From contig JAIDDJ010000032.1 of assembly GCA_029055345.1 (NCBI GenBank), positions 62,001-126,000 on the forward strand: 64,000 bases of DNA, in the 5' to 3' direction. This DNA comes from Muribaculaceae bacterium. GTDB lineage: Bacteria > Bacteroidota > Bacteroidia > Bacteroidales > Muribaculaceae. Of this stretch, positions 38,988 through 60,430 are shown in pieces. Every line of letters begins with the position of its first letter. Within the stretch, counting starts at the first letter, position 1. The translations under genes and the position numbers were made by a program. A model generated the notes under the pieces. That model saw nothing but the letters and a program-made list of their open reading frames with translations, did not search any database and was not told where the DNA came from.

Positions 38988-40234
38988 TGAAGATGTCAAA
39001 GAAAGTTCTTGTAATCGGTGGCGGGGGCCGTTGTCATGCTATGGTCGACAGCCTGTCGCGCTCGCCCCACGTTTCAAAAATATTTTGTGCTCCCGGGAAT
39101 GGAGGAATTTCCGCACAGGCTGAATGCGTGCCTATTCCCGTATCAGACATTGACGGCCTTCTTGAATTTGCTAAATCAGAGGGCATAGATCTGACCATTG
39201 TCGGCCCGGAGGCATCTTTGGCTCTCGGAATCGTGGATACTTTCCGCAAAGCCGGATTGAAGATTTTCGGCCCTACGAAAGCCGCTGCTAAAATCGAAAG
39301 CTCCAAGGAATATGCAAAAGACCTGATGGCGCGCCATGGCGTGCCTACAGCCGCTTACCGCACTTTTGACAATTTCGATGAGGCACTTGCATACGTTAAG
39401 GCAGGTCCCATTCCGGTAGTAATCAAATATGACGGTCTGGCAGCCGGAAAAGGCGTTGTAGTGGCCCTTACACTTAAGGAAGCCGAGGATGCGCTCAAGG
39501 ATATGCTGCTTAACGAAGCGTTCGGCAAAGGACGTGTGGTTATCGAGGAATTCCTTGACGGACCCGAATTTTCTTTCATGTGTCTGGTCAACGGTCGCAA
39601 ACTCTATCCTCTGGCCATCGCGCGCGACCACAAGCGGGCATATAACCATGATATGGGCCCCAATACCGGTGGTATGGGAGCCTTTTCGCCTGTGCCTTTT
39701 GTTACTGAGGAAATAAAGAATCGCGCCCTGGAAACTATCCTGCAGCCCGTGGCGGATGCCATGGTCGATGAAGGAGTGCCCTTCACTGGCGTCCTTTATG
39801 GTGGCCTTATTCTTCATAAAGGCGAACCTAAAGTTATTGAATTCAATGCCCGGTTCGGCGACCCTGAAACGGAAGTGGTGCTTCCACGACTCAAAAGTGA
39901 CCTCTACGAACTCATTGATGCCGCTGTGGAGGGGAAGGAGTTTAACCCCGAATGGCGTCCGGAGACTGTGCTCGGAGTGGTGATGGCTGCAAAGGGATAT
40001 CCCGGCAAATATGAGAAGGGACACGTGATTCATGGTCTCGACAAAGTGTCTAATAAAGTCTATCATATGGGCACTTCCATCCGTGATGGAAAGACACTCA
40101 GTGTCGGAGGTCGCGTGCTGATGGTTCTTGGTGAAGGGAATGACCTTGCCGAGGCTCAGAAATCAGCCTATACTGATGTGATAAAAATCGATTGTGACGG
40201 ACTTTTCAACCGTAACGATATCGGCAACCTTTAA
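38987..40234 (+). CDS. purD: phosphoribosylamine-glycine ligase
   Basis: VIGGGGRCHAMVDSL; GPEASLALGIVD; VIKYDGLAAGKGVVVA; EFNARFGDPETEVVLPRL. Confidence 0.97.
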   Translation: MKMSKKVLVIGGGGRCHAMVDSLSRSPHVSKIFCAPGNGGISAQAECVPIPVSDIDGLLEFAKSEGIDLTIVGPEASLALGIVDTFRKAGLKIFGPTKAAAKIESSKEYAKDLMARHGVPTAAYRTFDNFDEALAYVKAGPIPVVIKYDGLAAGKGVVVALTLKEAEDALKDMLLNEAFGKGRVVIEEFLDGPEFSFMCLVNGRKLYPLAIARDHKRAYNHDMGPNTGGMGAFSPVPFVTEEIKNRALETILQPVADAMVDEGVPFTGVLYGGLILHKGEPKVIEFNARFGDPETEVVLPRLKSDLYELIDAAVEGKEFNPEWRPETVLGVVMAAKGYPGKYEKGHVIHGLDKVSNKVYHMGTSIRDGKTLSVGGRVLMVLGEGNDLAEAQKSAYTDVIKIDCDGLFNRNDIGNL

Positions 40235-40257
40235 AACCGGTGTGAAAACTATTTCTT

Positions 40258-41127
40258 ATGGCAGAAGCAACAATAATCAGTGGCAAAGATCTCGCCCGTA
40301 AAATCAAGGAAGATATTGCGGCTCGCGTTCCGGCTCTCGTGGAAAAATATGGACGCGCCCCTCATCTGGCAGTAATACTCGTAGGAGAGGATCCGGCCAG
40401 TCAGTCATATGTAAAATCCAAAGGCAAGGATGCCGAGCAGGTCGGCTTCAAGAGCACGACCATCCGGCTTCCCGAAGAGACAAGCGAAGAGAAACTTCTC
40501 GATATAATAGCCGGCCTTAACGCTGATGATGATGTAGACGGCATTCTCGTGCAGCTCCCGGTGCCCGCGCATATTGATGAAGACCGCGTGATTGAGGCTA
40601 TTTCTCATGAAAAGGATGTCGATGGCTTCCATCCGGCCAATGTGGCCGCTCTTTGGCAGAAAAGACCTTGCGCGTATCCCTGCACGCCCAAGGGTGTTAT
40701 CAGGATGCTCGATGAGGCCGGCGTGGATATCCAGGGTAAACGCGCCGTGGTGATTGGCCGCAGCAATATTGTCGGTCTTCCCATGGCAAAGATGCTTCTG
40801 GACCGCAATGCAACTGTGACAGTAGCTCATAGCCGCACGAAAAATCTCCCCGAAGTGACACGCGAGGCGGATATTCTTGTGGCCGCTGTAGGGAAGCTGA
40901 GAATGGTGACCGCAGATATGGTCGCCCCAGGTGCTGTCGTGATTGATGTCGGTGTAAACAGAGACCCTGAAACCGGTAAACTCGCCGGCGATGTCGATTA
41001 TGAGCCCGTGAGCCGCATTGCATCAGTGATTACTCCGGTTCCGGGCGGTGTCGGTCCTATGACGCGCGCTTGCCTGATGGAGAACACCCTCGAGTGCTAC
41101 CTTAAGGCTATGGAAAAGCATTCTTAA
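40258..41127 (+). CDS. folD: bifunctional methylenetetrahydrofolate dehydrogenase/cyclohydrolase
   Basis: VGEDPASQSYVKSKGKDAEQVGF; VQLPVPAHIDE; KDVDGFHPANVAAL; TPVPGGVGPMTRACLMENT. Confidence 0.97.
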   Translation: MAEATIISGKDLARKIKEDIAARVPALVEKYGRAPHLAVILVGEDPASQSYVKSKGKDAEQVGFKSTTIRLPEETSEEKLLDIIAGLNADDDVDGILVQLPVPAHIDEDRVIEAISHEKDVDGFHPANVAALWQKRPCAYPCTPKGVIRMLDEAGVDIQGKRAVVIGRSNIVGLPMAKMLLDRNATVTVAHSRTKNLPEVTREADILVAAVGKLRMVTADMVAPGAVVIDVGVNRDPETGKLAGDVDYEPVSRIASVITPVPGGVGPMTRACLMENTLECYLKAMEKHS

Positions 41128-41160
41128 TTAGTTTATATCAGTTACCTTCAAATATTTATT

Positions 41161-42456
41161 ATGATTGATAGATATTCCCGCCCGCAGATGCGAGCCATCT
41201 GGACAGAGGAAAATAAATTCAACGCTTATCTCAAGGTAGAGATTCTCGCCGCCGAGGCATGGCGTGAACTGGGAGTGGTTCCCCCCGAAGATATTGAAAA
41301 GCTATGGGCCAACGCCACTTTCAATATCGACAGGATAAAGGAAATAGAGCTGCAGACCCGCCATGACATTGTGGCATTCACCCGCGCCGTCAGCGAATCG
41401 CTCGGAGAAGAACGCAAATGGGTGCATTACGGTCTCACTTCGACCGATGTTGTCGATACGGCCAACGGCTATCTGCTCAAGCAGGCAAATGACATTCTAC
41501 GCGCCGATCTCTTGGAATTCACTGAAATGCTTCGGAGGCAAGCGCTTAAATATAAATATACACCCTGCATAGGCCGCACGCATGGCATTCACGCCGATAT
41601 CACTTCTTTCGGATTGAAATGGGTGCTCTGGCTCGCCGAGATGCTGCGCAACATCAAGCGTTTCGATGAAGCTGCAAGAGGCGTGGAAGTCGGCAAGATT
41701 TCGGGAGCGGTCGGCAACTTCGCAAACATTCCTCCTTTCGTACAGGATTATGTGTGTGAGAAACTCGGTATTTCGAGTGCCGATGTCTCTACACAGGTTA
41801 TCCAGCGCGACCGACATGCTTATTATCTCGCCACAATCGCTCTGATAGGCGCATCAATCGAACAGATGGCCACTGAAATCAGAGGTCTGCAACGGACCGA
41901 GGTCCATGAAGTGGAAGAAGCCTTCGGTAAAGGACAGAAGGGCTCGAGCGCAATGCCTCACAAGCGTAATCCTATTGGCTCGGAAAATATGTGCGGCTGC
42001 GCCCGCGTGCTGCGCGGATACATGGCTACTGCTTATGAGAACGTGGCTCTATGGCACGAACGCGACATTTCGCATTCCGCAACCGAGAGGATAATCCTGC
42101 CCGATGCGACCATGCTGCTCGACTATATGCTCAACCGAATGGGCAATATCCTTGGAAACCTAACTGTGTTCGAGGATAAAATGAAAGCTGACATCTATCT
42201 GACCAATGGAGTAATCTTCGCTCAGCGTGTAATGAACGCTCTGATAGCCAAAGGTTTCGCCCGTGAAAAAGCTTATGATACGGTGCAGCCGGTTGCTATG
42301 GCGGCAATGGCTCAGGGGCTTCCTTATATCGATCTGCTGCGTGAAAACCCAGTGATTAAGGAGAATCTTTCCGAAAAGGAACTCGAAGACTGCTTCACTC
42401 TCGACTATTATATGAAGAACGTGGATTACATCTTCGACCGCAACGGAATTAAATAA
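41161..42456 (+). CDS. purB: adenylosuccinate lyase
   Basis: MIDRYSRPQMRAIWTEENKF; VHYGLTSTDVVDTA; GSSAMPHKRNPIGSENM. Confidence 0.96.
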   Translation: MIDRYSRPQMRAIWTEENKFNAYLKVEILAAEAWRELGVVPPEDIEKLWANATFNIDRIKEIELQTRHDIVAFTRAVSESLGEERKWVHYGLTSTDVVDTANGYLLKQANDILRADLLEFTEMLRRQALKYKYTPCIGRTHGIHADITSFGLKWVLWLAEMLRNIKRFDEAARGVEVGKISGAVGNFANIPPFVQDYVCEKLGISSADVSTQVIQRDRHAYYLATIALIGASIEQMATEIRGLQRTEVHEVEEAFGKGQKGSSAMPHKRNPIGSENMCGCARVLRGYMATAYENVALWHERDISHSATERIILPDATMLLDYMLNRMGNILGNLTVFEDKMKADIYLTNGVIFAQRVMNALIAKGFAREKAYDTVQPVAMAAMAQGLPYIDLLRENPVIKENLSEKELEDCFTLDYYMKNVDYIFDRNGIK

Positions 42457-42483
42457 TTAAGAAACAACATCATACGATTCAAT

Positions 42484-45271
<2,788 letters not shown>

Positions 45272-45278
45272 GACTCTA

Positions 45279-46805
45279 ATGGAAAAAATTCTTATTCTGG
45301 ATTTCGGGTCGCAATATACTCAGCTTATTGCCCGTCGCGTGCGTGAACTGAATGTCTATTGCGAAATTCATCCTTTCAACAAAATGCCTGAGATTGACCC
45401 GGATGTCAAGGGCGTGATTCTTTCAGGAAGTCCTGCTTCAGTGCGCGATGAAGAGGCTCCCAAGCCGGACCTTTCTGCAATTAAGGGAAACCTTCCGCTT
45501 CTCGGCGTATGCTATGGCGCGCAGTATTTAGCAATGGCATATGGAGGCGAGGTGGAAGGCGCTCCCAGTCGTGAGTACGGCAGAGCCATGCTTACTGTAA
45601 CTGCACCGGAAGACCCACTGATGAAAGGGCTTCCCTCCCCTACTCAAGTATGGATGTCGCATGGTGACACTATCACCCGCGTACCGGCCAACTACGAGAT
45701 TATCGGCTCTACATCGAATGTGCGTGTGGCTGCATATCATATCGGTGGCGAATTGACCTGGGGCATTCAGTTCCACCCAGAAGTGTTCCATTCGACCGAT
45801 GGCCCGAAACTGCTCTCTAATTTTGTGCTCGACATCTGCGGATGCTCCGGCACATGGAGTCCGGCCTCTTTTATCGACTCAACCGTGGCTGAACTCAAAG
45901 CCAAAATCGGTGACGACAAGGTGATTCTCGGACTCTCCGGCGGAGTTGACTCCACAGTTGCAGCCGTTCTGCTCAATAAAGCTATCGGGAAAAATCTATA
46001 CTGCATTTTCGTAAATAACGGTCTTCTCCGCGCAAATGAATTTGAAGACGTTCTCGCCTCTTACAAAGGAATGGGATTAAATGTCAGAGGCGTCGATGCA
46101 AGTGAACGTTTCTATGCCGACCTCAAGGGCGTGACCGACCCGGAGAAAAAACGTAAGATTATCGGACGCGACTTCGTGGAGGTGTTCAATGAGGAAGCCC
46201 GGAAGGTGGAAGGTGCTCGTTGGTTGGGCCAGGGCACTATATATCCGGATGTGATAGAAAGCTGCTCGGTAAAGGGCCCGTCGGCTACTATTAAATCGCA
46301 CCATAACGTCGGAGGACTACCCGAGGAGATGAACCTTAAGGTGGTCGAGCCCCTGCGTTTGCTTTTCAAAGATGAAGTGCGCCGCGTAGGCCGGGCTCTC
46401 GGAATCGATCAGAATCTTCTTGGACGTCATCCTTTCCCGGGGCCCGGTCTGGGAATCCGTATTCTCGGTGAAGTCACCGGTGAGAAGGTTAGGATTCTTC
46501 AACAGGCCGACAAGATTTTCATTGACAACTTGCGCGAATCCGGATGGTATGATAAAGTGTGGCAGGCCGGCGTAATGCTCCTTCCTGTGCAGAGTGTCGG
46601 AGTAATGGGCGATGAACGGACCTACGAAAGCTGTTGCGCGCTGCGCGCTGTAATTTCCACCGATGGCATGACCGCCGATTGGGTTCACCTGCCTTACGAA
46701 CTGCTCGCTAAAGTAAGCAACGAAATCATCAACAAGGTTCGTGGAATCAACCGCGTTGTCTACGACATTTCCTCCAAACCACCGGCCACAATCGAGTGGG
46801 AATAA
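45279..46805 (+). CDS. guaA: GMP synthase (glutamine-hydrolysing)
   Basis: [62 protein letters not shown]. Confidence 0.98.
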
Positions 46806-47041: not shown

Positions 47042-48772
47042 ATGAAAAAATCTACTCTTTTGCTTGGCTGTGTTGCAGCAGTCGCTTTGGTGACGGGGTG
47101 TACGGATTCGGCTTATGACCTGTCGGATATCGATTCTACCACCGAAATCAAAATTAATAATCTCGCCATTCCAATTAATATGGAGGCTATTACTCTTGAC
47201 CAGATAATTGATGTCAAGGAAGGCGAGAGTCTTAAGGTTGTCAATGGGAAATATGCAGTGTCTGTGGATGGCTCTTTCTCTTCTGACCCCATAAAGATAA
47301 AAAACATCCATATCGCATCACCATCTATCGCCCCGACGATCACAACCCTGAATCAGGCCGGAGCACAATCTTCGATGCTGAAGGCTCCATCCGTGAATTT
47401 CGCTGTCCCTGAAGTCACCACCTCTTTCTCTTATTACGATGACGAGGTAGACCCGGCAGTTGTAGACATTACTTCCGCCAAAGTCTCAGATATGGTGCTG
47501 GCTATCAAGCTTTCGCTTCCGGAGCTCACATCTGTGATTGATGAAGTGATTATAAATCATCTTACTTTCGACCTGCCAAAAGGTCTTTCCGGTACCCCCT
47601 CCATGGGCTCCTACGATTCTTCCAAGGGCCTTCTTACAATCAATAATGTTAAGACTTCACCCGCCGGTCTCAATATCTCCCTCCCCATTTCGGAGATTGA
47701 TCTTGACGCAGCCGGGGCGATTTTTGATTCCGAAACACATACTTTCGACTTTCAGGGCGAAATTAAAATCACAGATGGTGAAATTGGAGTAGACCCGACC
47801 CGATTGTCAAATCCGACTTCTGTGCCAACCACAATCGATTTACGCGTTGACTATAACATGAGCGCTCTCGATGTCAATTCAATCTGCGGGCGCCTTCAGT
47901 ATGATGTCCCCGATTTTGTAATTCCTGATGTCGACTTGACGAATCTGCCTGATTTCCTGCGTCAGAAGGGTACGAACATCATCCTGAATAATCCTCAGAT
48001 ATATCTCTCACTCGATAATCCGTTATACGCGACTCATCTCTCGGCATCAACCGGGCTCACACTTACTGCAATCCGTGACGGACGTCCCACGAACGTATGC
48101 TCACTTTCCGAGCCGGTCAAAGTGGGGTCGGATAAAGGTGTCGGACCCTACAACTTCTGTCTCTCGCCTTATAAACCTGATTTCCTTGCAGGATTTGAAA
48201 ATGCTGAATATGTGAATTTCAAGACATTGGGGCACATTGTTGAAGGTGATGGTCTCCCCGAGGCAATCCATATCATCGCTGACGATCCTTCTTTCCCCGC
48301 GCAGGATGTCACCGACCTCAAAATCGGGTATGACTACGGCAGTATCAGCGGAAAATATAATTTCTACGCTCCGCTTGCCCTCGATGCCGGCTCAACAATT
48401 ACTTACAGCGACTCAGACACCGGCTGGGCGTCCGATGACCTCGATGACCTGACTATCGAGAATATCAGGATTACCGCTAACGTCACCACCGATGTCAATG
48501 CAGAGGTAATAGCCTCAGGCTCGCCCCTTGACAAGCAGGAATTGCCTATGGCCAACGTTAATGTATCTTCTGTCACGGTTCCGGCTAATGCTAAGGATTA
48601 CCCGATAGAAATAAATGTCACCGGAGATATAAAGGGAATCGACGGATTCCTTTATACGGTCAGGATTGCTGCCCCGGATGGTGAAAATGCCGACGCACTC
48701 GGCCCGGACCAGCAAATCAAACTGACTAACATTCGAGCTTATGCAACCGGCAAATATGTCACTAAACCGTAA
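47042..48772 (+). CDS. exported lipoprotein of unknown function
   Basis: signal peptide with lipobox ALVTGC; start at MKKSTLLLG; beta-rich repetitive body. Confidence 0.75.
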   Translation: MKKSTLLLGCVAAVALVTGCTDSAYDLSDIDSTTEIKINNLAIPINMEAITLDQIIDVKEGESLKVVNGKYAVSVDGSFSSDPIKIKNIHIASPSIAPTITTLNQAGAQSSMLKAPSVNFAVPEVTTSFSYYDDEVDPAVVDITSAKVSDMVLAIKLSLPELTSVIDEVIINHLTFDLPKGLSGTPSMGSYDSSKGLLTINNVKTSPAGLNISLPISEIDLDAAGAIFDSETHTFDFQGEIKITDGEIGVDPTRLSNPTSVPTTIDLRVDYNMSALDVNSICGRLQYDVPDFVIPDVDLTNLPDFLRQKGTNIILNNPQIYLSLDNPLYATHLSASTGLTLTAIRDGRPTNVCSLSEPVKVGSDKGVGPYNFCLSPYKPDFLAGFENAEYVNFKTLGHIVEGDGLPEAIHIIADDPSFPAQDVTDLKIGYDYGSISGKYNFYAPLALDAGSTITYSDSDTGWASDDLDDLTIENIRITANVTTDVNAEVIASGSPLDKQELPMANVNVSSVTVPANAKDYPIEINVTGDIKGIDGFLYTVRIAAPDGENADALGPDQQIKLTNIRAYATGKYVTKP

Positions 48773-48779
48773 TTGATCA

Positions 48780-50159
48780 ATGAAAACTTATATAAAATAT
48801 ACCGGCGCTGCCCTTCTCGCGGCATGCGCTTTCTGCGGAGCTTCCGCTCAGAACACTTATTCCGGCTATTTCCTCGAGGGTTATGACTATCGTTACCAGA
48901 TGAACCCGGCCTTCGCCAACGAAAATAATTTCGTGGCTCTTCCGGCTCTCGGAAATCTCAATATCGGCGTTCAGGGAAATCTCCATCTCACCACCCTGCT
49001 TTACAATGTGGATGGAAAGACCTGTCTGTTCACAAATCCGGATGTGTCGGTAGGTAGCGTGATGGACAACGTAAGCTCCCACAATAAACTCGGATTCGAC
49101 ACAAAAATCGGAGTATTGTCAGGTGGCTTCAAAGCCTGGGGCGGATATAACACCGTCTCTATTAATGCGGTAGCCTCCGCTCATGTGGACCTTCCGGGCA
49201 GTCTGTTCAGCCTTCTGAAAGAGGGAATAAGCAATAAGACATATGATATATCCGACCTGCGTGCAAGTGCAAGAGGTTACGTTGAAATGGCTTTCGGCCA
49301 CTCCCGCGACCTCAGCAAATGGGTGCCCGGTCTGCGCGCCGGCGCTACCCTGAAGTTCCTTCTCGGTATGGGAAGCCTCGATGCCCGTTTCAATAAAGCT
49401 CATCTTACTCTCGGCGAAGATGGATGGACGGCTGTCACTAACGCAGATATATATGCCTCGGTGCCAGATCTGAAATTTAAGACAGAATATTCCGACAAGA
49501 CCGGTCGCGACTATGTCAGCGGTATCGATATGAACAGCTTCGGAGTGAACGGCTTCGGCCTCGGACTCGACCTCGGAGCAAGCTATAAGCTAAACGATGA
49601 CTGGGAGTTCTCTGCTGCAATCCTCGATATCGGCTTTATCAGCTATGGCGACACCCAGCTCGCTTCAACTCAGGGCGACCGCATTGTGGAGACCAATAAA
49701 TATATCTTCAATCCAAATGATGACGCCGACAACTCATTCTCTAAGGAATGGAAGAAAATGCGCGATGATATGCTCGAGCTCTATCAGCTTGACAATGTCG
49801 GCAAAGTGGGTGCTCAGACCTATTCACTCCGCACTACCCTCAACTTCGCGGCGCAATACACTTTCCCGCTTTACCGCAACCTCAAGTTCGGTCTCGTCAA
49901 TTCAACACGAATTGCCGGCCCCTTCACCTGCACTCAGTTCCGCCTGTCGGCCAACGTTGCTCCGGTGAAAGTCTTCTCCGCTAATGCGAATTTCGCTCTC
50001 GGAACTTATGGAGCCTCTTTCGGCTGGATGCTGAGCGTACATCCCAAATACTTCAGCCTGTTCCTCGGAATGGACCACACGCCCGGCAAGCTCGCCAAGC
50101 AGGGTGTCCCTCTGAACAGCAATCTTGAGGTGAATTTCGGTATAAATTTCCCCTTCTGA
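48780..50159 (+). CDS. DUF5723-like outer-membrane barrel protein
   Basis: signal peptide ACAFCGASAQ; GYDYRYQMNPAFANENNFVALPALGNLNIGVQGNL; terminal aromatic FPF. Confidence 0.7.
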   Translation: MKTYIKYTGAALLAACAFCGASAQNTYSGYFLEGYDYRYQMNPAFANENNFVALPALGNLNIGVQGNLHLTTLLYNVDGKTCLFTNPDVSVGSVMDNVSSHNKLGFDTKIGVLSGGFKAWGGYNTVSINAVASAHVDLPGSLFSLLKEGISNKTYDISDLRASARGYVEMAFGHSRDLSKWVPGLRAGATLKFLLGMGSLDARFNKAHLTLGEDGWTAVTNADIYASVPDLKFKTEYSDKTGRDYVSGIDMNSFGVNGFGLGLDLGASYKLNDDWEFSAAILDIGFISYGDTQLASTQGDRIVETNKYIFNPNDDADNSFSKEWKKMRDDMLELYQLDNVGKVGAQTYSLRTTLNFAAQYTFPLYRNLKFGLVNSTRIAGPFTCTQFRLSANVAPVKVFSANANFALGTYGASFGWMLSVHPKYFSLFLGMDHTPGKLAKQGVPLNSNLEVNFGINFPF

Positions 50160-50202
50160 CAATAGCCGGGAATCTTCAGGCAGAAAAATCAGGAAGAGCC
50201 GA

Positions 50203-51423
50203 ATGGAAGAACACTCAAGGCCACACACAGAAACCGTCAAAACAGGGACGCCGGTCAATCCGGACAATGGCGTCCCTGAAAATACCGGACCTCGAAGACA
50301 ACGAGTGTTCCTCTTATTGAAGGCTTCAGGCATTACAGCCCTCGCTTTTCTGCTGTCTTACCTGCTGACATCTCCTTTCACGGCTACCCTATCCGCCCTC
50401 TTCTCCTCGCCGGAGAAAAATGACTTTAAAATGTCAGATCTCCTATGCCAGATTGCCGACGACAGGCCGGTGCGCGACTTCGATGATCGCATAGTAATTC
50501 TTGACATAGGGAATCTCGACCGTCCCGGGATTGCCGAAGTGTTCTCGATTCTCGCACTTTGCGAGCCTGCTGCAGTAGCCATAGATATTAACTTTGAAGT
50601 CCCTTCCGACAACGATTCCACGCTCCTCGCTGCCTTATCGGCTCTCCCAAACGTGATTTTACCTTTGGGCTTGCGGCAGAAAGGCAATAAATTTGAAATA
50701 TCAGAGAAGCCATTTTTCTACGGGAAATTTAATAACGTGAAATATGGGGCGGCAAATTTCCCTACTTCGCGAGTGGGTGCCACAGTAAGGGAGTATGCTG
50801 AATCTTTTCCACTGACCGATGGCTCTGTCCTTCCCTCTTTCCCGAAAGCCACGGCTTTGGCATCCGGATTAAAAACTGATTTGAAAGAGAACCCTGATAA
50901 TGTGGAGACAGGCTTCATCCGATATCATTCAAAAGAAATACCCTTGATTCATTACGAAGAACTCGAAGAGCGGGCAGAACAAATTTTTAATAAAACAGTG
51001 CTCGTCGGCACCACTACAGATGCCGGGGATGTGTATCCCACTCCTATTCATAGCTCTCTGTCAGGTCTTGAGATACACTCTTATGCATTGAGCACCATAC
51101 TTGATGGCTCACGGATAGAACGGCTTCCGAAAATAATTGCAGACCTGATTGCAGTCCTGTCGTGCTTCCTGATTGTCTGGGGGGCGGTCGGAATCAAATG
51201 GGGCACACGGGGCCTTCTGCTCAGATTCGCCCAGGTGGTGATTCTTTACCTCTTAGTGTGGATAGGATATTCATTGCTCGTCGACTATGAAATTGTAAGT
51301 GACTTCTCTCAAGCAATACTGATGGTGACTTTCGGGCTTTTCGCCTTTGATTTATGGACCGGTTCGGAGGTCATAGTCAAATGGTCAAAGAAAAAAATTA
51401 ATAACTATAGAACCAAACATTAA
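50203..51423 (+). CDS. CHASE2-domain membrane protein without cytoplasmic output domain
   Basis: N-terminal TM, CHASE2 motifs DDRIVILDIGNLDRPG, EPAAVAIDINFEVPSDNDSTLLAAL, VLVGTTTDAGDVYPTPIHSSLSGLEIHSYAL; three C-terminal TM helices, then stop. Confidence 0.8.
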   Translation: MEEHSRPHTETVKTGTPVNPDNGVPENTGPRRQRVFLLLKASGITALAFLLSYLLTSPFTATLSALFSSPEKNDFKMSDLLCQIADDRPVRDFDDRIVILDIGNLDRPGIAEVFSILALCEPAAVAIDINFEVPSDNDSTLLAALSALPNVILPLGLRQKGNKFEISEKPFFYGKFNNVKYGAANFPTSRVGATVREYAESFPLTDGSVLPSFPKATALASGLKTDLKENPDNVETGFIRYHSKEIPLIHYEELEERAEQIFNKTVLVGTTTDAGDVYPTPIHSSLSGLEIHSYALSTILDGSRIERLPKIIADLIAVLSCFLIVWGAVGIKWGTRGLLLRFAQVVILYLLVWIGYSLLVDYEIVSDFSQAILMVTFGLFAFDLWTGSEVIVKWSKKKINNYRTKH

Positions 51424-51437
51424 GATCTAATATAGAA

Positions 51438-52286
51438 ATGAAACAAAGACTTCTATTTTTCTTTTGTCTATTGACACTTTCACTCTCGGTCAGTGCCCAT
51501 TACACCATTCACTCGGTGAGCGGTGATGTCAAGGTGGAGAGCGGAGGGAAAACTCTTCCCGCAACAAAAGGTATGACAGTCAATGCCATTGACTATATCG
51601 TGATTGCAAAGGGAGCCAAGGTTGAAATCCTTAATGACCTGGACAAGAGAATTTACACTTGCATCACGCCGGGACGCACCTCCGTTACAAAACTGATGAT
51701 AGCTGCCCGCGGTTCTGCTGCCGACAACACCTCCAGTGTAGCATCACGGATGACTCTGGGGCGCAAAGGGGGTGCCGACAACAAGAACGTGTATGTGGAA
51801 AAAGGTATGGTTCGTCGTTCACTTGCCGTATATGACCCCGATGGCGACACTATGGAGTTGGATGCAGAGACTCTGGGCCGTTTCCTGGCGGCACGGATAC
51901 TCGCTGACCCTCACGACTTCTCTGAAGAATCTCCGGTAAAATTCAATTGTGGTCGTTTAGAGAACGGAGGTATAGGATTTAAACTTGAGAACACGATGCA
52001 ATTCCCGATATATTTAAACGTGTTGCGTGTTTCGGGTGGTCAATCTCCGGTTGTGGAAATATCACAGGTCGGTCAGCCGACCGGAACCTACGTTGTGCTT
52101 CCACAGCAGTCCTTAGTAAGGGAGCACTTCCCGCCGGTGCCCAAAGATGAGTCGCATTTTATCGTAATGACTAACTGCCAGTTTGATGTCGATAAGGTGA
52201 TTGAGGTAATAAATAAAAATATGAAGGATTCATCTGAATCCGACAGCATTGACAAAGACCTCCCTGTATATGTAGCTTCTTTCTGA
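51438..52286 (+). CDS. exported FecR-like domain protein
   Basis: signal peptide; HYTIHSVSGDVKVESGGKTLPATKGMTVNAIDYIVIAKGAKVEIL. Confidence 0.55.
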   Translation: MKQRLLFFFCLLTLSLSVSAHYTIHSVSGDVKVESGGKTLPATKGMTVNAIDYIVIAKGAKVEILNDLDKRIYTCITPGRTSVTKLMIAARGSAADNTSSVASRMTLGRKGGADNKNVYVEKGMVRRSLAVYDPDGDTMELDAETLGRFLAARILADPHDFSEESPVKFNCGRLENGGIGFKLENTMQFPIYLNVLRVSGGQSPVVEISQVGQPTGTYVVLPQQSLVREHFPPVPKDESHFIVMTNCQFDVDKVIEVINKNMKDSSESDSIDKDLPVYVASF

Positions 52287-52334
52287 TGTATTCTATAATC
52301 AAACCTGCCTATCCAATAATATTCTCATTTTATC

Positions 52335-54485
52335 ATGAAATTTAATCAGCTTTCGGTTTTTGCTTTGGTGTTCGCAGTCATTTCCGGTATGCCCTCGGAT
52401 GCTATTGCAAAGAAAAAGAAAAAAGAGGATTCCACTCCGAAAACAGAACAAAAGACCTCATATTATTTCAAGCGCCAGATGCCAACGGAGATAATCGATC
52501 CATATGGGGTCACTATCTATTCGGCAGATAAATTCAATGTTCATACTATGAGTGGGGATCGTCTTCATCATGACAAGGATACGATACTGACCATGCGGGT
52601 TAACCCTTCCGGTGTTAATTACGGAATTATTACTAAGAATAAGAAGGGCCTACGCGCAGCCGATGTCTATCACACCATTCAAGGAGTTTTTTCTAAGAAT
52701 GAATTCCAGACCAAGCATCTAAACAAATTCGATTCAAAGCATTATGGCTACCCTACGGCTATAGGTTATACTCCTGACGCCCGTATGATCGTTGTGGCAG
52801 CCAACAGTCCTGTTCTCGGGAATAATATTTTTTTCCTTGAACCTCGTAAATTCCAGCCGGTCGCTAAGATCCAGAGCGTCCCCTTTGAGGTACAGAAAAT
52901 GATCCTCAGTCCCAACGGATACTATCTGGCCGCCGTCAACGGAGATAAAATCATAGTCTATAATCTCGAAGAGAAAAAGATTCGTAAACAAATGGATGTT
53001 GGTGAGAAAGTAAACGATTTGGCGTTCAGCCCTGATAACAGTGACTTCGCTGTCCTGACCGATGACGGGTTGCTTTCCCTGTATAACACACGATCTTTCG
53101 AACTGCGTAAGATGATTGACGATCTTGGAGATGCCCGCGCCATGGCTTATAATTTAGATGGCAAATACATGGCGGTTGTCAGTGGCGACAATACCGTGAC
53201 TCTTGTCAATCTGCTTCGTGATTCCGACCGCGAGAATTACGTAGCCGAGACCGGTTCACTAAAAGATGTCGGTTTTGTCAGCGATGCTTACGGCAATACG
53301 CTTCTGATCATACCTGAGGCCGATTTCATCGTAGCCAAGCGATTGCCACATCTTAAACCTTTCTATAATAAGCTGATAGCTGATGAGGTTGAACGTAAGA
53401 TGGATGAGTGGCTTAAGATGATGCCCGGAGAGACGATGGAGCAATATCGCGCTCGTGTCACTGATGAGAGCCGTATGCGTCAGCGCCGCCTTTTTGAAGA
53501 CCAAATCGCTACCGGTTTCGCCGGCGACCTGCTCGCAGGTGCCACAATGAGCCTCGGGTCTTACGACAGAGCAAACGGTGTTCTGGCTCTGAACTTCGAT
53601 ACGATGCCCACAATTTTTCTGCCGGTGCCGGAAGCGGATGTAACATCATTTCATAATGCAGGAGATCTGTCGCTATCAGACGTGATGTATGGTATACTAC
53701 CGGATGACAGCTTTGAAATCGTTTACGCGAAAGTTACAAACAAAGCTGATGGGAAAAGTTATGTTTATGACAACCTTATGCGTGCCGATCTCCAATATAT
53801 GGCTGCCGATGACGCCATTTCTATCGAAATGCTCCAGCAGCAACAGATGGAAGAACTCAAACTGCAGGAACTCCGCCGGAAAGTCGTTGACGAAGCGAAA
53901 AAGATGAATGTCATTTCAGACCATACCCAAATATCTGTCGACTCAAAAGTTGTGCCGGAATATGATGCAAATGGCAATAAGATTCTAAATTATAATGTCT
54001 GCGTGACCTATACGGTAGATCCTGAATTCTCTGTTTCCGAAGACTTCGGCCCGGGTAAATACCGCATTGAGGAATCAGGTGCTGCATCTTCTATGCTCAA
54101 CATAGTCAAGGAAGCGTTCGAAGGCGACTTCAAGCAATATCTCGTTCCGGGGAAGAAGATTAAAGTGCGACTGCTTGGGACCGCCGATGCTACTCCAATA
54201 GTCCACGGTATCGCTTACGACAATGCATACGGGGAGTTCGAGGAGGAACCTGTCTACATTGACGACATACTCAAGACTATATCTATAAATGCAAAGGAAG
54301 GAATCAAGGAAAACGAACAACTCGCTTTCCTCCGCGCTCTGGGCGTTAAGGATTTCCTCAACCGCAACGTGCATGGATTCAAGGATATGGAAACTGACTA
54401 CCGCTATGAGGTCAACGTCAGCAAGGATAAAGGTAGCGAGCATCGCCGAATCACTCTTGACCTCACTTTTATCAATGCTTATTGA
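52335..54485 (+). CDS. exported WD40-type beta-propeller protein with possible OmpA-like C-terminal domain
   Basis: repeats GEKVNDLAFSPDNSDFAVLTDDGLLSLYNTRSFELRK, GDARAMAYNLDGKYMAVVSGDNTVTLVNL; C-terminus KIKVRLLGTADATP...ENEQLAFLRALGVKDFL. Confidence 0.7.
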   Translation: MKFNQLSVFALVFAVISGMPSDAIAKKKKKEDSTPKTEQKTSYYFKRQMPTEIIDPYGVTIYSADKFNVHTMSGDRLHHDKDTILTMRVNPSGVNYGIITKNKKGLRAADVYHTIQGVFSKNEFQTKHLNKFDSKHYGYPTAIGYTPDARMIVVAANSPVLGNNIFFLEPRKFQPVAKIQSVPFEVQKMILSPNGYYLAAVNGDKIIVYNLEEKKIRKQMDVGEKVNDLAFSPDNSDFAVLTDDGLLSLYNTRSFELRKMIDDLGDARAMAYNLDGKYMAVVSGDNTVTLVNLLRDSDRENYVAETGSLKDVGFVSDAYGNTLLIIPEADFIVAKRLPHLKPFYNKLIADEVERKMDEWLKMMPGETMEQYRARVTDESRMRQRRLFEDQIATGFAGDLLAGATMSLGSYDRANGVLALNFDTMPTIFLPVPEADVTSFHNAGDLSLSDVMYGILPDDSFEIVYAKVTNKADGKSYVYDNLMRADLQYMAADDAISIEMLQQQQMEELKLQELRRKVVDEAKKMNVISDHTQISVDSKVVPEYDANGNKILNYNVCVTYTVDPEFSVSEDFGPGKYRIEESGAASSMLNIVKEAFEGDFKQYLVPGKKIKVRLLGTADATPIVHGIAYDNAYGEFEEEPVYIDDILKTISINAKEGIKENEQLAFLRALGVKDFLNRNVHGFKDMETDYRYEVNVSKDKGSEHRRITLDLTFINAY

Positions 54486-54526
54486 ACCTTTTGGCTGATA
54501 TGTACTCTTATTGAACGCCATTAATC

Positions 54527-57148
54527 ATGACCAGAAATAAAAGAAATAAGTTTTTAATGGGAATGGTTATGCTTTCGGCAGCCTGGCTGCCCTTTTCCAT
54601 AGCCTCTTCTTTCCCTTCATCTCAGATTGATGCAGCCCCCGCTGAGGCCCCTGTAGCTGATCTAAATGCACTCAATCTTGATTCATTACAACTCGTTGAA
54701 ACAGCTCGACTCGTTGAGGAAGCATCCGAGGGTTATAAGAACCTTAAATTTATTCAATACGATGGGGTTACTGAAGCCGAACTTTATCCTACTGTTATGG
54801 ATACTTACGGCAAGGTTTGCGCAGCCATGAAGGCTCCACGACTTTCGAATGAAGACAAAACGAGATTCAAAGGTATCTTGCTTGATATAAGCGACTTGTT
54901 GAAAAGAGGTTCAATTTATTACTCCAACCAGGGACTTACGGCGGATATGTCGCGATTCGCTCAGGCTTATGTTGATATGCGACTTAATCCTGAAATGGCA
55001 GATATTAATTTCGGGCCTAAGACCGATCTTTATCCGGCTCTCGTGTACTGCGCCGCTTCTTCTGCTTACAATGGTGGAGAATTTGGGAAGGCCGTTGACT
55101 ACCTTGAGGAATATCTCACTACAGGAGATGCTGACCGCGCCGAACAAGTGAGCCTTTTCCTCGGTCAGGCTGCAATCAATGCCAAGTGTCCCGATAGAGC
55201 CGTGAATCGCATGATTATGGCCAGCGAGCGCTATCCCGCCAATTTCAATATACTTATGCTCGCGTTGCAGAACTGTATTGAGGCCGGTCAGACCGACCGC
55301 ATTCAGCCTCTTCTGACGAAGGCCCTTGCTATGAAGCCAGATGATGAACAGCTTATCTTAGCCCAGGCTAAGCTCTTTGAAAATGAAGGGAATTATTCCT
55401 CCGCAATTGATCTTTTTCAAAAGTTATATGAGCTCAAGCCTAATAGTCTTCAGGTAAACCAGCATTTGGCCCTATGTTACTATAATCTTGGTGCTGATTA
55501 CTATAACAAAGCATTAATGGAAAGTGAGGAGAAGACCGCCAAACGCTACTCCCGGCAAGCTCAAGCATACTTCAGCAGTGCCGTCGGGAAACTGGAAACC
55601 ATTGTTGAAAATGATCCGACCAACACCAAATATCTTCGCGCTCTTGCCATCACTTACGGCTGCCTTGGCAATAAGACTCGACTCGATGAAGTGAATGTAA
55701 GGTTGCAGGCGCTGGGGCTAAAGCCCATGCCCATGAATGGTATGCCGGAATCAATAGCTTTCAGCGAACAGACGTCAAACCTTGCATCTTCAGCTGCCGT
55801 AGTGCCCGATTTTCAGGAATTTGCCCGTGGTTTTGTAGAAAAGGAACTCGCTCAATGGTCTAAACGAGGTGAATTCGAGAAAACCGAAGATTATGAGAAG
55901 CGTGTAAATCAAGAAAAGGTATATCAGAAATATCAAGCACTCTGCAAGAAAGCCGAAGCTGACTATCTTCAGAAGTATGCCGGCCGCCTACGCATCTCCG
56001 ACCTCTCTCTTGAGCCTTATGACGTGGATAATGAAAGCTATAAGATCAATTCCGCAATGGGTCCTATCATTGTGAATGTTCCTCTGAAGAATAAGGAGGC
56101 CGAAGCATTCAAGGCTTCTTGGAACTCGATTCAGCTACGCAACCCTAAATATTTTATAAAGGATAACCGCGTGGCCATTGCTTCGGTGGAATTGGTAACT
56201 TCGGGAGGAAAGAGCTATCGCTATGATTCGAGTCAGGCTGCTGATTATGACTTCACGGATGTTAGTTTGGATATGAATTCGTTCATTGCCCAAGGTAATT
56301 CAAAGCGCGACCGCACCGATAAAGGACTCTCCGCTTCTTCCAGACCGAAAGTGATTCGCGCAAAGAGCGATGTTGACGAGAATATTCCGCTTACGAACCG
56401 GAAAGCAGAAAAAACAGTCGCGCTTATTATGGCCAATGAGAACTATAAGCAGGTGACAAATGTGGAATCTGCTCTCAATGATGGAGAGACAATGGCTCGC
56501 TACTGCACTATGACCCTCGGAATCCCTGCCAATCAGGTGCTGTCTTATGAAAATATGACGTATGCCGAAATGCTCGGAGCAGTAAGAAAACTAAAGCAGC
56601 TTGTTGGAGCTCTTGGTGACGGTGTGGATGTAGTGGTTTACTACGCCGGTCATGGTTTTCCTGACGAGAGCAATAAGGATGCCTACCTCCTTCCGGTGGA
56701 TGGCGACGGATTCACTACCGCCACTTCATATCCTCTTAAGAAACTTTACCACGACCTTTCGGCCACAGGTGCCGATAACGTGATGGTATTCCTTGACGCT
56801 TGCTTTAGTGGTGCAACCCGTGACGGAGGTATGCTTGCAGAAGCAAGAGGTGTCGCCCTCAAGCCACGAATCGCTGACCCCGAGGGAAGTATGTTCGTGC
56901 TCAGTGCCGCAAGTGATCAGGAAACCGCGCTTCCTTATAAAGAGAAAAATCATGGCCTTTTCACTTATTTTCTACTCAAAAAACTTCAGGAAAGCAAGGG
57001 AAATGTGTCTCTTAAGGACCTCAGTAAATATGTGGAAGAGAACGTGAAGAAAAATTCTGTAACAGTCAATGGTAAACTCCAGAATCCGCGCACAAGCGTT
57101 TCCGGACGAATGCGCGACTCATGGGAAAGCAAGCGCCTGCGCCCATAA
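54527..57148 (+). CDS. exported TPR + caspase-family (C14) protease
   Basis: signal peptide; TPR-like region; caspase core KTVALIMANENYKQVTNVESALNDGE, VVYYAGHGF (His), VFLDACFSGATRDGG (Cys). Confidence 0.88.
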   Translation: MTRNKRNKFLMGMVMLSAAWLPFSIASSFPSSQIDAAPAEAPVADLNALNLDSLQLVETARLVEEASEGYKNLKFIQYDGVTEAELYPTVMDTYGKVCAAMKAPRLSNEDKTRFKGILLDISDLLKRGSIYYSNQGLTADMSRFAQAYVDMRLNPEMADINFGPKTDLYPALVYCAASSAYNGGEFGKAVDYLEEYLTTGDADRAEQVSLFLGQAAINAKCPDRAVNRMIMASERYPANFNILMLALQNCIEAGQTDRIQPLLTKALAMKPDDEQLILAQAKLFENEGNYSSAIDLFQKLYELKPNSLQVNQHLALCYYNLGADYYNKALMESEEKTAKRYSRQAQAYFSSAVGKLETIVENDPTNTKYLRALAITYGCLGNKTRLDEVNVRLQALGLKPMPMNGMPESIAFSEQTSNLASSAAVVPDFQEFARGFVEKELAQWSKRGEFEKTEDYEKRVNQEKVYQKYQALCKKAEADYLQKYAGRLRISDLSLEPYDVDNESYKINSAMGPIIVNVPLKNKEAEAFKASWNSIQLRNPKYFIKDNRVAIASVELVTSGGKSYRYDSSQAADYDFTDVSLDMNSFIAQGNSKRDRTDKGLSASSRPKVIRAKSDVDENIPLTNRKAEKTVALIMANENYKQVTNVESALNDGETMARYCTMTLGIPANQVLSYENMTYAEMLGAVRKLKQLVGALGDGVDVVVYYAGHGFPDESNKDAYLLPVDGDGFTTATSYPLKKLYHDLSATGADNVMVFLDACFSGATRDGGMLAEARGVALKPRIADPEGSMFVLSAASDQETALPYKEKNHGLFTYFLLKKLQESKGNVSLKDLSKYVEENVKKNSVTVNGKLQNPRTSVSGRMRDSWESKRLRP

Positions 57149-57151
57149 ACT

Positions 57152-58021
57152 ATGAATTGTATGAAACGACTGATAAGCCTTTTTTTATTAGTTCATGCAC
57201 TCATGTGCTCGGCCTCGGATATAGTAAGTGTCTCCGGAGAATCAACGTATTACGATGACGGCACTAAATCAAAATCAGAATGCATGCGGCTCGCTGCCGA
57301 ACAGGCCAGAATTGATGCCCTCGCCCGAAAATTCGGAACTATTGTTTCGCAAGACATTCTCCAGACTGACCGCATTGCAGGTAACCGCGAGCAGAATGAT
57401 TTCCTCGCCCTTACTTCGTCGGAAGTCCGTGGCGAATGGATTGCCGATGTGGGTGAACCTGAATATGAATTCAGCCACGACTCTAAATCCAATTTGATTG
57501 TCCATTGCAAAATAAGCGGGAAAGCAACGGAAATCACCAATTCCGCTACCCCTTTTGAGGCAAACGTGCTTCGCAACGGCACTGACCTGCGTAATGCGGA
57601 TAACATATTCCGCGATGGCGATGATATGTTTCTCCACTTCCGGGCGTCTGCTGATGGATATCTTGCAGTTTTTCTGGAGGACGAAGCCAAAGACGTTTAC
57701 CTGCTATTGCCTTATCCACGCGACCCGAAGTCCCGATTGCCTGTCATTAAAGACAAGGACTATGTTTTCTTCAGTCGAGACAGAGATAAGGAGAATGGGG
57801 CTATGGTTGAAGAAATGGTCATGACGGCACCTGACAATCTTGAATATAACAGGGTCTATGTCGTATTCTCTCCTGAGCAATTCTCTCGTCCGGTCATGGA
57901 TTCGGCTGCCGGATTACCTGTGATGAAGAGTGCGGAGTTCAATAAATGGCTTATCAAGAACCGACGCAATGACTCCCGGATGGGCGTCAAAGCTATGAAT
58001 CTTCAAATTTCTCCCCGCTGA
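57152..58021 (+). CDS. exported DUF4384-like protein
   Basis: signal peptide; GDDMFLHFRASADGYLAVFLEDEAKDVYLLLPYPRD; 3 nt after caspase gene. Confidence 0.65.
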   Translation: MNCMKRLISLFLLVHALMCSASDIVSVSGESTYYDDGTKSKSECMRLAAEQARIDALARKFGTIVSQDILQTDRIAGNREQNDFLALTSSEVRGEWIADVGEPEYEFSHDSKSNLIVHCKISGKATEITNSATPFEANVLRNGTDLRNADNIFRDGDDMFLHFRASADGYLAVFLEDEAKDVYLLLPYPRDPKSRLPVIKDKDYVFFSRDRDKENGAMVEEMVMTAPDNLEYNRVYVVFSPEQFSRPVMDSAAGLPVMKSAEFNKWLIKNRRNDSRMGVKAMNLQISPR

Positions 58022-58155
58022 TTTTATTCGGATCTTCAGACCCGTCATTATGGGATATTGCTTTCCTGCTACTGACAGACGGGCCACATGCAATCCGGAA
58101 ATAAAATATAAATTTGGATAGTAATAATGAAAACAATAAATTAAACTCAGAACAG

Positions 58156-58782
58156 ATGAAAAAGATTCTTTTTGGGCTTCTGGCCCTGGTCCTTCTTCTT
58201 CCTGCATACGGAGAAGCCGCTAACAAGCAACTCGAAAAAGCTCGCAAACAGGAATTGAGCAAGAAACTCAAGGAGTACAAGAAAGGCAAATGGGAAATTA
58301 TGGGTAGCCATACTCTCGAATTTGCGCTTGCCAAGCATTTCGACCGCCTTAACACTCTTGGAGAAGACGGACATGAAGTGGAGGGAATTTCAACAAAAAC
58401 AAAATCCAAGAACACAGGCAAGCAGGCCGCAATCAACAATGCCGTAGTTACATATGCGCAGGAAGCGGGCAGCACGCTTCAGGGGCGGATCGTAAGCGAT
58501 ATGAATGCCAATGGAGCGGACCCCGCCGGTGAGTTCGACAATTTCTATGGAGCTTACGAACGTCTCGTGGAAAAGGAAATAAGAAGCGAGATGGAACCAT
58601 CATATTCCATAATCCGCACCAATCCCGACGGCACTTATGAAATTCGAACTTATTTTATAATAGCCGAAAGCGCAGCAAGCAAAGCGCGAATGCGTGCCCT
58701 TGAGGAAGCCCTGAAGAATTCGGAAGCAGCCCAGAAATACGGTGACAAAATCACTGAATTCGTAAAGCAGGGATTTGAATAA
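58156..58782 (+). CDS. small exported protein of unknown function
   Basis: signal peptide MKKILFGLLALVLLLPAYGEA; start at 58156. Confidence 0.6.
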   Translation: MKKILFGLLALVLLLPAYGEAANKQLEKARKQELSKKLKEYKKGKWEIMGSHTLEFALAKHFDRLNTLGEDGHEVEGISTKTKSKNTGKQAAINNAVVTYAQEAGSTLQGRIVSDMNANGADPAGEFDNFYGAYERLVEKEIRSEMEPSYSIIRTNPDGTYEIRTYFIIAESAASKARMRALEEALKNSEAAQKYGDKITEFVKQGFE

Positions 58783-58809
58783 TTTTTAAGTCAGTTTAAT
58801 ATTTAATAT

Positions 58810-60306
58810 ATGAAGAGAGGAAGATTCCTGATTGGGATGCTGGTGGCTGCTTTGACAGCATCATCTATGATGGCACAGGATAAAAAGAAATCGTTTGAGG
58901 AATTCAGAAAGGGAATTTTAAACAGTTATTCGGATTTCCGAAAAACTATCCTTGACCATTATGCTGACTTTCTCAACGGTGAGTGGCACGAGTATGAAAG
59001 CCTTAACGGTGAACGTCGTGACCGCACCCCGAAGCCCTCAAAAGCACCTCAAGCTGACTCTCAAGAGGACTCTTCTCCCTCCCATAAAAAACCGATAAGA
59101 GAGACTCCGGCGACCCCAAAAACCGACCGGAGTCCTCTCCCTACTACTCCCTCCTCTAAAAGAAACACAACCCCACGGGCCGATTCTCACCCGGGCACAC
59201 CAACCGATGATTTCTATTTCTTCGGTATTCCGGTCAGCCTCCCCGGTATTGAATACAACATTACTTACCGACTGACAGCTCCAGCCGACTATGCCACCCA
59301 GTGGAAAGAACTTGACCGCGCAAAAGTTGCCCGGTATTTGGTCCCCGTGATTAAGACCACGGCTCAGGATATGGGGCTGAACGACTATCTCATCTATGAA
59401 TTGCTTAAGGCGTATGTGGATGCAAAATTCCCGCAGGCAGATGTCACTTCCCGATTCTCTGCGCTCCATTATCTTCTTGCAAATCTCGGTTACGATGCCC
59501 GAATCGCAGTGGCCGGCTCTGGAACGCCTTTGCTGCTCCTTCCTTTTAAGCAGACAATATATGCCCGCAATTACATGATGATGGCCGATGGAAAATATTA
59601 TGTATTCGCTCCCGAAGGTTATGACTATTCCAGACTCACTAAGGAAAGACTCCGCACCTGCACTCTGCCTAAAGATGCCGACTTGGGTGAGAAATTCGAC
59701 CTCGTGCTCGGCCAACTTAATATTCCTTTCAAACCCAAAAGTTTTAATCTGGCATATGGTCCTCTCAAGCTTACCGGAGAGGTGAATGAAAACCTGATGC
59801 CTATCCTCTATCATTACCCTCAGATGCCAATAGCAGATTATGCTATCTCGCAGCCTGACCCGATATTACGGCAAAAGCTTGTGAACCAAGTGAAATCGCA
59901 ACTTGGACACCTCGATGGAGATGAAGCTGTGGAGCAGCTTCTCGGTTTTATGCACCACGTTTTCGATTATGCCACCGATGAAGAATTCCATGGATTCGAA
60001 AAACCATATTTCCTCGAAGAAACTTTATATTACCCGAAAAACGACTGCGAAGACAGGGCTATCTTCTATACATATCTACTATGGAACGCACTTGGAAAGG
60101 AAGCGCAACTCATAACTTTCCCGGGTCATGAAGCGGCCACTGTCAAGCTTGATAGACCGGTTGACGGCACTTCATATAATTTCTCCGGAAAGACATTCTA
60201 TATATCCGATCCGACATTTATTGGCTCCCGCACCGGAATGGTTATGCCGATCTATAAAAACAACGAGCCCAAAGTAGATTATACTTTCACTTCCAAATCA
60301 AAGTGA
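58810..60306 (+). CDS. exported transglutaminase-like protein with low-complexity linker
   Basis: signal peptide; KNDCEDRAIFYTYLLWNALG (Cys), FPGHEAATVKL (His), YISDPTFIGSRTG (Asp); Pro/Ser/Thr-rich linker after ~70 aa. Confidence 0.65.
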   Translation: MKRGRFLIGMLVAALTASSMMAQDKKKSFEEFRKGILNSYSDFRKTILDHYADFLNGEWHEYESLNGERRDRTPKPSKAPQADSQEDSSPSHKKPIRETPATPKTDRSPLPTTPSSKRNTTPRADSHPGTPTDDFYFFGIPVSLPGIEYNITYRLTAPADYATQWKELDRAKVARYLVPVIKTTAQDMGLNDYLIYELLKAYVDAKFPQADVTSRFSALHYLLANLGYDARIAVAGSGTPLLLLPFKQTIYARNYMMMADGKYYVFAPEGYDYSRLTKERLRTCTLPKDADLGEKFDLVLGQLNIPFKPKSFNLAYGPLKLTGEVNENLMPILYHYPQMPIADYAISQPDPILRQKLVNQVKSQLGHLDGDEAVEQLLGFMHHVFDYATDEEFHGFEKPYFLEETLYYPKNDCEDRAIFYTYLLWNALGKEAQLITFPGHEAATVKLDRPVDGTSYNFSGKTFYISDPTFIGSRTGMVMPIYKNNEPKVDYTFTSKSK

Positions 60307-60380
60307 CCATTGAATCTACAGTCAGTCTATTCTCTTATTCCCCCCACGAGCCTAATTTCCTTCAGCCCCTCCATATTTCT

Positions 60381-60430
60381 AAGGCTCCATCCACTAATAT
60401 TTATAAGCGGATGAAGCCTTAAATATTTTT
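60381..60430 (+). terminator. intrinsic terminator after transglutaminase-like gene
   Basis: AAGGCTCCATCC / GGATGAAGCCTT stem (one mismatch) then AAATATTTTTT. Confidence 0.75.

Follow-up and report, generated by a model that had tools for sequence, protein, structure and literature searches.

The 64,000-nt window analysed here (positions 62,001 to 126,000 of contig JAIDDJ010000032.1 from a Muribaculaceae bacterium, assembly GCA_029055345.1; the source genome comprises 2.03 Mb in 78 contigs and is 83% complete) contains nine open reading frames (ORFs) on the + strand between positions 47042 and 60306 (Table 1). They encode a lipoprotein, a DUF5723 protein, a CHASE2 membrane protein and its exported partner, a WD40 propeller protein, a TPR-caspase, a DUF4384 protein, a small exported protein and a transglutaminase-like protein. 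The gaps between them are 7, 43, 14, 48, 41, 3, 134 and 27 nt, the 134-nt gap being counted from the ATG of gene 8 at 58156 (an alternative upstream start, TTG, is present at 58114). An earlier note, made from the letters of the window, had proposed one nine-gene envelope system. Its strand, gaps and both bounding terminators were borne out, and of the domains it had named Pfam finds DUF5723, CHASE2, WD40-type propeller, TPR, Peptidase_C14 and, below cut-off, DUF4384; the single unit did not hold, since genes 1 and 2 are separate. The lipoprotein and DUF5723 genes (47042-50159) are a core-genome pair and not cassette members, and genes 3-9 (50203-60306) are a relocatable accessory cassette, possibly for the signal-gated trimming of surface proteins.

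Table 1. Features of the locus; "exported" denotes an export-type N-terminus.
Feature	Position	Strand	Basis or remark
Terminator hairpin of guaA	46838..46878	+	fold -17.6 kcal/mol, z -4.9
Gene 1, lipoprotein, 576 aa	47042..48772	+	weak DUF4621 match only; outside conserved cassette
Gene 2, DUF5723 protein	48780..50159	+	Pfam PF18990 1.8e-85; outside conserved cassette
Gene 3, CHASE2 membrane protein	50203..51423	+	PF05226 1.5e-16, residues 105-330
Gene 4, exported CHASE2-partner ("FecR-like" in the earlier note)	51438..52286	+	profile match to proteins beside CHASE2
Gene 5, exported WD40 propeller with OmpA-like C-terminus	52335..54485	+	AlphaFold2 (AF2) model, PDB propeller matches, hhalign
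Gene 6, exported TPR - shared domain - caspase (Peptidase_C14)	54527..57148	+	PF00656 3.2e-22
Gene 7, exported DUF4384 protein	57152..58021	+	PF14326 9.9e-5, under gathering cut-off
Gene 8, small exported protein, 208 aa from ATG	58156..58782	+	orthologue conservation
Gene 9, exported transglutaminase/LapG-like cysteine protease (predicted)	58810..60306	+	AF2 model, LapG fold match, invariant residues
Terminator hairpin 3' of gene 9	60380..60421	+	fold -17.8 kcal/mol, z -4.9

The two units differ in their occurrence among relatives. The lipoprotein is present in 38 of 41 genomes of the same genus and the WD40 gene in 17 of 41; in all six loci inspected the lipoprotein adjoins DUF5723. Relative G431 has the order guaA-lipoprotein-DUF5723-lyase and relative G069 the order lipoprotein-DUF5723-lyase as far as the contig end, with nothing inserted in either; their lyase proteins are 96-97% identical to that of the window, and in each genome the seven-gene block sits on a different contig. 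Four more relatives again possess the lipoprotein-DUF5723 pair without the block. Because of these uninterrupted sites, of the block being located elsewhere and of the pair occurring alone, genes 3-9 are regarded as a relocatable accessory cassette. A nine-gene system including the lipoprotein and DUF5723 would agree with the common strand, the gap of 43 nt and the failure to call a terminator-like site between DUF5723 and CHASE2 in the window; it is nevertheless hardly tenable, considering that the lipoprotein is almost universal in the genus, that the pair occurs without cassette in all relatives inspected and that two close relatives have the uninterrupted site. One operon of nine genes was ruled out by gene neighbourhood in the relatives. 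Since intergenic DNA was not alignable between relatives, the insertion junctions were not readable and the mode of movement is not visible. Only one other locus was seen with both units close together (L078), where transglutaminase-like gene, CHASE2 and a 252-aa protein are divergent from WD40-caspase-DUF4384 and homologues of lipoprotein and DUF5723 lie a few kb away.

When 85,462 species genomes were scanned with the WD40 alignment, 79 loci were obtained, all carrying Bacteroidales titles; those outside Muribaculaceae included Bacteroides timonensis, Phocaeicola, Odoribacter lunatus, Rikenellaceae, Paludibacteraceae and Prevotellaceae. The complete series of genes 3-9, identically ordered, was present in 26 of the 79 loci, many of the others being interrupted by contig ends, and WD40 and caspase genes were adjacent, with short gaps, in 78; the profiles used had some of these very loci in their training set, and the figures therefore speak for arrangement and not for independent detection. 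With plain BLAST of same-family loci, the ordered series from CHASE2 to the transglutaminase-like gene was found in about nine genomes, almost every one of them of a separate genus, and further copies were partial or rearranged. Conservation of gene order beyond the strain, which the earlier note had made a test of its proposal, holds in several Bacteroidales families for genes 3-9 but not for genes 1-2. Median pairwise identities of the seven proteins were 34-59% (full set) and their distance matrices correlated with r of 0.75-0.95. In a sample of 394 genomes across the order the WD40 protein was detected in seven (E <= 1e-60). Six of the cassette's seven proteins have an export-type N-terminal hydrophobic stretch, which was present in 23-25 of the 25 orthologues of each. 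Barnesiella sp. WM24 (L104), which possesses the full seven genes, is not labelled as a metagenome-assembled genome and may be culturable. Odoribacter lunatus DSM 112344, a further candidate for a culturable carrier, possesses genes 5-9. In G414 and G432 the WD40-caspase pair is accompanied by another caspase-family gene of divergent orientation (L236, L237), and another locus contains a second set of small-protein, transglutaminase-like and caspase genes (L234); this suggests duplication of the module.

Hydrophobic segments of the CHASE2 protein lie around residue 35 and in the range 307-365, and no cytoplasmic output domain was recognised with Pfam. The product of gene 4 had been called FecR-like; this label could not be kept, as no FecR match was obtained in 24 of 24 orthologues and the comparison with Bacteroidales FecR domains (PF04773 family) gave an hhalign probability of 0.5%. 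Its closest, weak match is to NCBIfam retention_LapA, below threshold in 9 of 24 orthologues (best 3.3e-4), and the [T/A/P]AAG cleavage motif was not seen in it. It is homologous to exported proteins whose genes immediately follow that of CHASE2 in numerous distant Bacteroidota (profile match, P 3e-5, with seven of fourteen CHASE2-partner proteins used in the comparison), and a pair of CHASE2 and a gene 4-type protein is also found on a Bernardetia plasmid. In one operon (L070, L128) gene 4 is separated from the WD40 gene by an insertion encoding an additional exported protein of 499 aa with a histidine-kinase-like ATPase domain, through which the CHASE2 side might have its output.

The AF2 model of the gene 5 protein (predicted local distance difference test, pLDDT, 85) shows a propeller, with matches in the PDB, a middle domain and a C-terminal domain. 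Residues of about 340-485 of the WD40 protein and about 427-575 of the caspase protein represent the same domain (hhalign probability 99, E 2.9e-18), over which no Pfam match extends; with this middle domain in common, the two proteins may dimerise or share a ligand. The tail of the gene 5 protein aligns with OmpA-like domains, including their Asp and Arg (hhalign probability 83%, P 9.4e-6), which are the peptidoglycan-binding residues of such domains. The corresponding D618 and R667 are invariant in 95 of 95 sequences, and the modelled order of elements, beta-alpha-beta-alpha-beta-beta, is that of the OmpA-like fold; OmpA was not among the Pfam families listed. The gene 6 protein contains a caspase domain with catalytic His and Cys, as is characteristic of Peptidase C14 and orthocaspases; H709, C759, D652 and D757 are invariant in 90 of 90 sequences, of which the independent number is somewhat lower, some genomes being in the set twice. 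Its nearest PDB entry by sequence is the MALT1 paracaspase, with an Asp of which D652 aligns; D757 is located two residues before the catalytic C759. An acidic S1 pocket gives basic (Arg/Lys) specificity in such proteases; D652 and D757 may form one here, and the caspase is predicted from its residues to cut after Arg or Lys.

The DUF4384 gene is kept beside the caspase gene with a median gap of 2 nt. Gene 8 is the most conserved member of the cassette (pairwise identities of 43-100% across 25 orthologues), and family profile scans with its product yielded no match above any cut-off; as possible paralogues, the DUF4384 and small proteins matched weakly (probability 12%, P 0.0024). The designation of gene 9 as transglutaminase-like received essentially no support from Pfam, the 31 orthologues giving two weak matches to the transglutaminase-like DUF553 only (E<=1), and PDB searches by sequence returned nothing useful. 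Support for this designation came from the AF2 model (pLDDT 85), whose best PDB folds are LapG structures 4u65_E/4fgq/4fgp (E 3.6e-4), and from the residues D412-C413-E414-D415, H440 and D467, invariant in 71 of 71 sequences, among which C413, H440 and D467 make up a C-H-D triad. D-C-E motifs occur in other bacterial transglutaminase folds too. By its residues, gene 9 appears to carry the LapG-type calcium-binding D-C-E motif at the putative active Cys; in DvhG, a protease of the LapG family, matching residues are required for calcium-dependent cleavage (PMC13090378).

Fusions and exchanges of parts were observed at other loci. In one distant locus (L169) a gene 4-like protein, a caspase and an outer-membrane beta-barrel are joined in one ORF beside CHASE2; in another (L164) WD40 and caspase are one ORF, in a run which also holds CHASE2, its partner, two OmpA proteins and a protein with a type IX secretion system (T9SS) tail. 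A third (L162) has, in one run, CHASE2, its partner, a papain-fold peptidase with DUF4384, a small protein and an immunoglobulin-like (Ig)-caspase. The CHASE2-gene 4 pair is missing from operons of the Bacteroidaceae type; the 41 genes following the caspase there include 18 with CarboxypepD_reg, 13 for fimbrillin-like lipoproteins (at eight loci) and seven with Lcl_C domains. In three WD40-caspase operons (L142, L138, L147), two to three consecutive fimbrillin-like lipoproteins look like caspase-tied adhesin sets. The source genome itself contains three fimbrillin-like Mfa_like_1 genes on other contigs (C32, C34 and C54; L239, L240 and L241). About 6 kb or less separates each of them from an OmpA-domain match, an arrangement typical of fimbrial loci, and none is linked to the window.

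Consensus matching revealed a Bacteroides-type -7 box, TAnnTTTG, upstream of the lipoprotein gene and of gene 8, and none upstream of the CHASE2 gene in the window. The box before gene 8 (58109-58116) is situated inside the 134-nt gap and could be an internal promoter. Directly upstream of the locus (37458-46805) lie purH-purD-folD-purB-purA-guaB-guaA, an unusually complete cluster for purine and folate metabolism.

It appears quite possible, though short of probable, that genes 3-9 represent an extracytoplasmic, signal-gated module of two proteases which trims surface proteins, most likely of the adhesin or fimbrillin type. The CHASE2 protein in the inner membrane and the exported gene 4 partner would sense a periplasmic signal, and since there is no cytoplasmic output domain, CHASE2 would most likely act sideways on periplasmic proteins. 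The OmpA-like tail would anchor the WD40 protein to peptidoglycan, where it could form a complex with, and scaffold, the exported TPR-caspase, with which it has a domain in common. Limited proteolysis of envelope or surface proteins would then be performed by the caspase and the LapG-like gene 9 protein, with the DUF4384 protein and the small exported protein as helpers, and the substrates, most likely adhesin- or fimbrillin-type proteins, would be matured or released on the signal. The exported proteases, the bare periplasmic sensor, the predicted peptidoglycan-anchored scaffold and the recurrent adhesin-type neighbours together point to signal-gated limited surface proteolysis. The architecture of the cassette is firm, its composition, gene order, N-termini, catalytic residues, modelled folds, fusions and accessory status having been observed; the formation of a complex, the protease activities and their cascade, the sensing and gating by CHASE2 and gene 4, the cleavage specificity and the adhesin substrates are inferred. 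The extracytoplasmic sensor-protease pathway suggested in the earlier note agrees with six of the seven proteins being of export type, with the seventh being a membrane CHASE2 protein and with the barrel fusion in L169. A more far-reaching version, rather doubtful at present, would be a wholly extracytoplasmic caspase pathway, leading laterally within the periplasm from an output-less CHASE2 to a peptidoglycan-anchored WD40/TPR-caspase and on to a cascade with a calcium-dependent LapG-like protease, with modular swapping of input and cargo.

Several points weigh against the proposed surface-trimming module. No adhesin is encoded by the window operon, where Pfam finds no fimbrillin gene; the fimbrillin slot, present in eight related loci, occurs in operons without CHASE2 and gene 4. 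The likeness of the gene 9 model to the LapG fold is moderate (TM score about 0.48 of target, root-mean-square deviation about 7 over 164 columns), and no match to Peptidase_C93/BTLCP was obtained in 31 orthologues at E<=1. Export signals were called from hydrophobicity and not with a trained predictor. The source genome also encodes clostripain, and a recent review assigns pilin processing to a protease of the clostripain class (PMC12632263).

Among the rival explanations, an envelope stress or quality-control protease, which would degrade or trim damaged periplasmic or outer-membrane proteins in general and not dedicated adhesins, is somewhat unlikely. The export-type N-termini, the OmpA-like anchor, the membrane sensor and the absence of an adhesin from the window operon would all suit it, as would most of the Muribaculaceae versions, in which CHASE2 and gene 4 are present without an obvious cargo gene; a patchy distribution (about 17 of 41 genomes of the genus, 7 of 394 across the order) is unlike that of a housekeeping protease, and elsewhere fimbrillin-like genes are found inside the operon. 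An effector system for programmed death of the orthocaspase type or for defence against phages would agree with the accessory distribution, with the caspase, WD40 and TPR domains, which are those of many prokaryotic metacaspases (PMC3501461), and with the match of gene 6 to the generic PADLOC "caspase" profile (2.4e-10). This explanation appears quite improbable: every enzymatic part bears an export-type N-terminus, family scans of the operon proteins found no NTPase, NACHT or nucleic-acid sensor, no other part has a meaningful PADLOC match, no phage record carries the module, and the nearest fusion joins the caspase to an outer-membrane barrel. A described defence system was rejected, there being no PADLOC system and no phage copy; a plasmid search returned matches to generic WD40 proteins only.

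Caspases, gingipains and clostripain all belong to protease clan CD. Gingipains and clostripain are known to cleave prepilins, and the caspase could be dedicated to the maturation of type V pilins by cleaving fimbrillin-like prepilins after Arg in a similar manner. The predicted basic specificity and the fimbrillin-like lipoproteins in the operon at eight loci are in favour of such a role. It is unlikely all the same, as the CHASE2-type operons contain no fimbrillin, the source genome has its three fimbrillin-like genes on other contigs as well as clostripain, and several of the variable genes carried by operons encode Lcl_C-type domains, which are closer to tip adhesins than to stalks. Shared with the described processing of type V pilins in Bacteroidota are a caspase-clan cysteine protease outside the cytoplasm, with basic specificity predicted for that of the cassette, and the fimbrillin-like lipoproteins in some operons; the cassette caspase, however, is of family C14 and not C25 or C11, and has TPR, WD40 and CHASE2 partners. 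Since the window operon is free of fimbrillin and the genome has clostripain, the cassette is not the described pilin-maturation system.

In its logic, the surface-trimming module favoured here resembles the Lap system (LapD-LapG-LapA; Dvh in Desulfovibrio), whose periplasmic protease trims an adhesin and is either retained or set free by a membrane receptor. Both have an inner-membrane receptor with a periplasmic domain, a periplasmic Cys protease of transglutaminase fold with C-H-D triad and D-C-E calcium motif (predicted in the case of the cassette), and a protein resembling an adhesin retention module (below threshold here), besides adhesin-type proteins in some of the operons. On the other hand, the cassette has CHASE2 in place of a LapD-like receptor, additional caspase, WD40 and DUF4384 parts and neither secretion genes nor a large adhesin in its operon; the [T/A/P]AAG motif was not seen in gene 4. 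The cassette is not a Lap system: no GGDEF protein was found in the genome (83% complete), the operon is devoid of secretion genes, and the C93 profile gave no match.

Links between CHASE2 and clan CD proteins exist in cyanobacteria. In Trichodesmium a CHASE2-caspase fusion is known, the caspase being predicted cytoplasmic, fused and provided with other partners. A plasmid of Aulosira laxa NIES-50 encodes, within 10 kb, a CHASE2-kinase-like protein, an exported TPR-CHAT-like protein (CHAT being called by motif only) and a filamentous haemagglutinin outer-membrane protein of adhesin type; it differs from the cassette by CHAT in place of C14 and by its other partners. The earlier note had mentioned cyanobacterial neighbourhoods of CHASE2, FecR and CHAT, and in this one example examined CHASE2 and CHAT were found together and FecR was not seen. 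The BiofilmReg operon of Burkholderia (response regulator, LysM-FecR, CHASE2 histidine kinase, DUF4136), which is implicated in biofilm, also has CHASE2 beside an exported peptidoglycan-linked partner (PMC5192318); its output is a two-component system without a protease, and its partner has a FecR domain, which the profile comparisons did not find in gene 4. Prokaryotic metacaspases and orthocaspases with catalytic His and Cys frequently contain WD40 and TPR domains, whereas the cassette, an envelope operon of seven genes, encodes WD40 and caspase as two distinct exported proteins. The literature searched (mostly without subscription papers) held no description of the seven-gene operon, and neither a paper joining CHASE2, caspase and FecR nor one on C14 in Bacteroidales. 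CHASE2, WD40, TPR or DUF4384 with prokaryotic caspases are already known as separate domain facts; for the combination of an exported caspase, a membrane CHASE2 sensor and a second putative protease in one conserved kit, no description was found in the literature searched.

The ligands and outputs of CHASE2 are little known, and prokaryotic caspases have mostly been treated as cytoplasmic death effectors; both would become testable in the setting of a conserved operon that combines a bare CHASE2 with an exported caspase and a LapG-like protease. In the more far-reaching version of a wholly extracytoplasmic caspase pathway, the cell surface would be remodelled by the module, and its input (CHASE2 and partner) or its cargo (fimbrillin-like adhesins) would be exchanged between lineages. 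No GGDEF protein was found in the source genome, and for gut Bacteroidales the cassette may be a candidate for signal-controlled surface proteolysis which is free of cyclic di-GMP (c-di-GMP).

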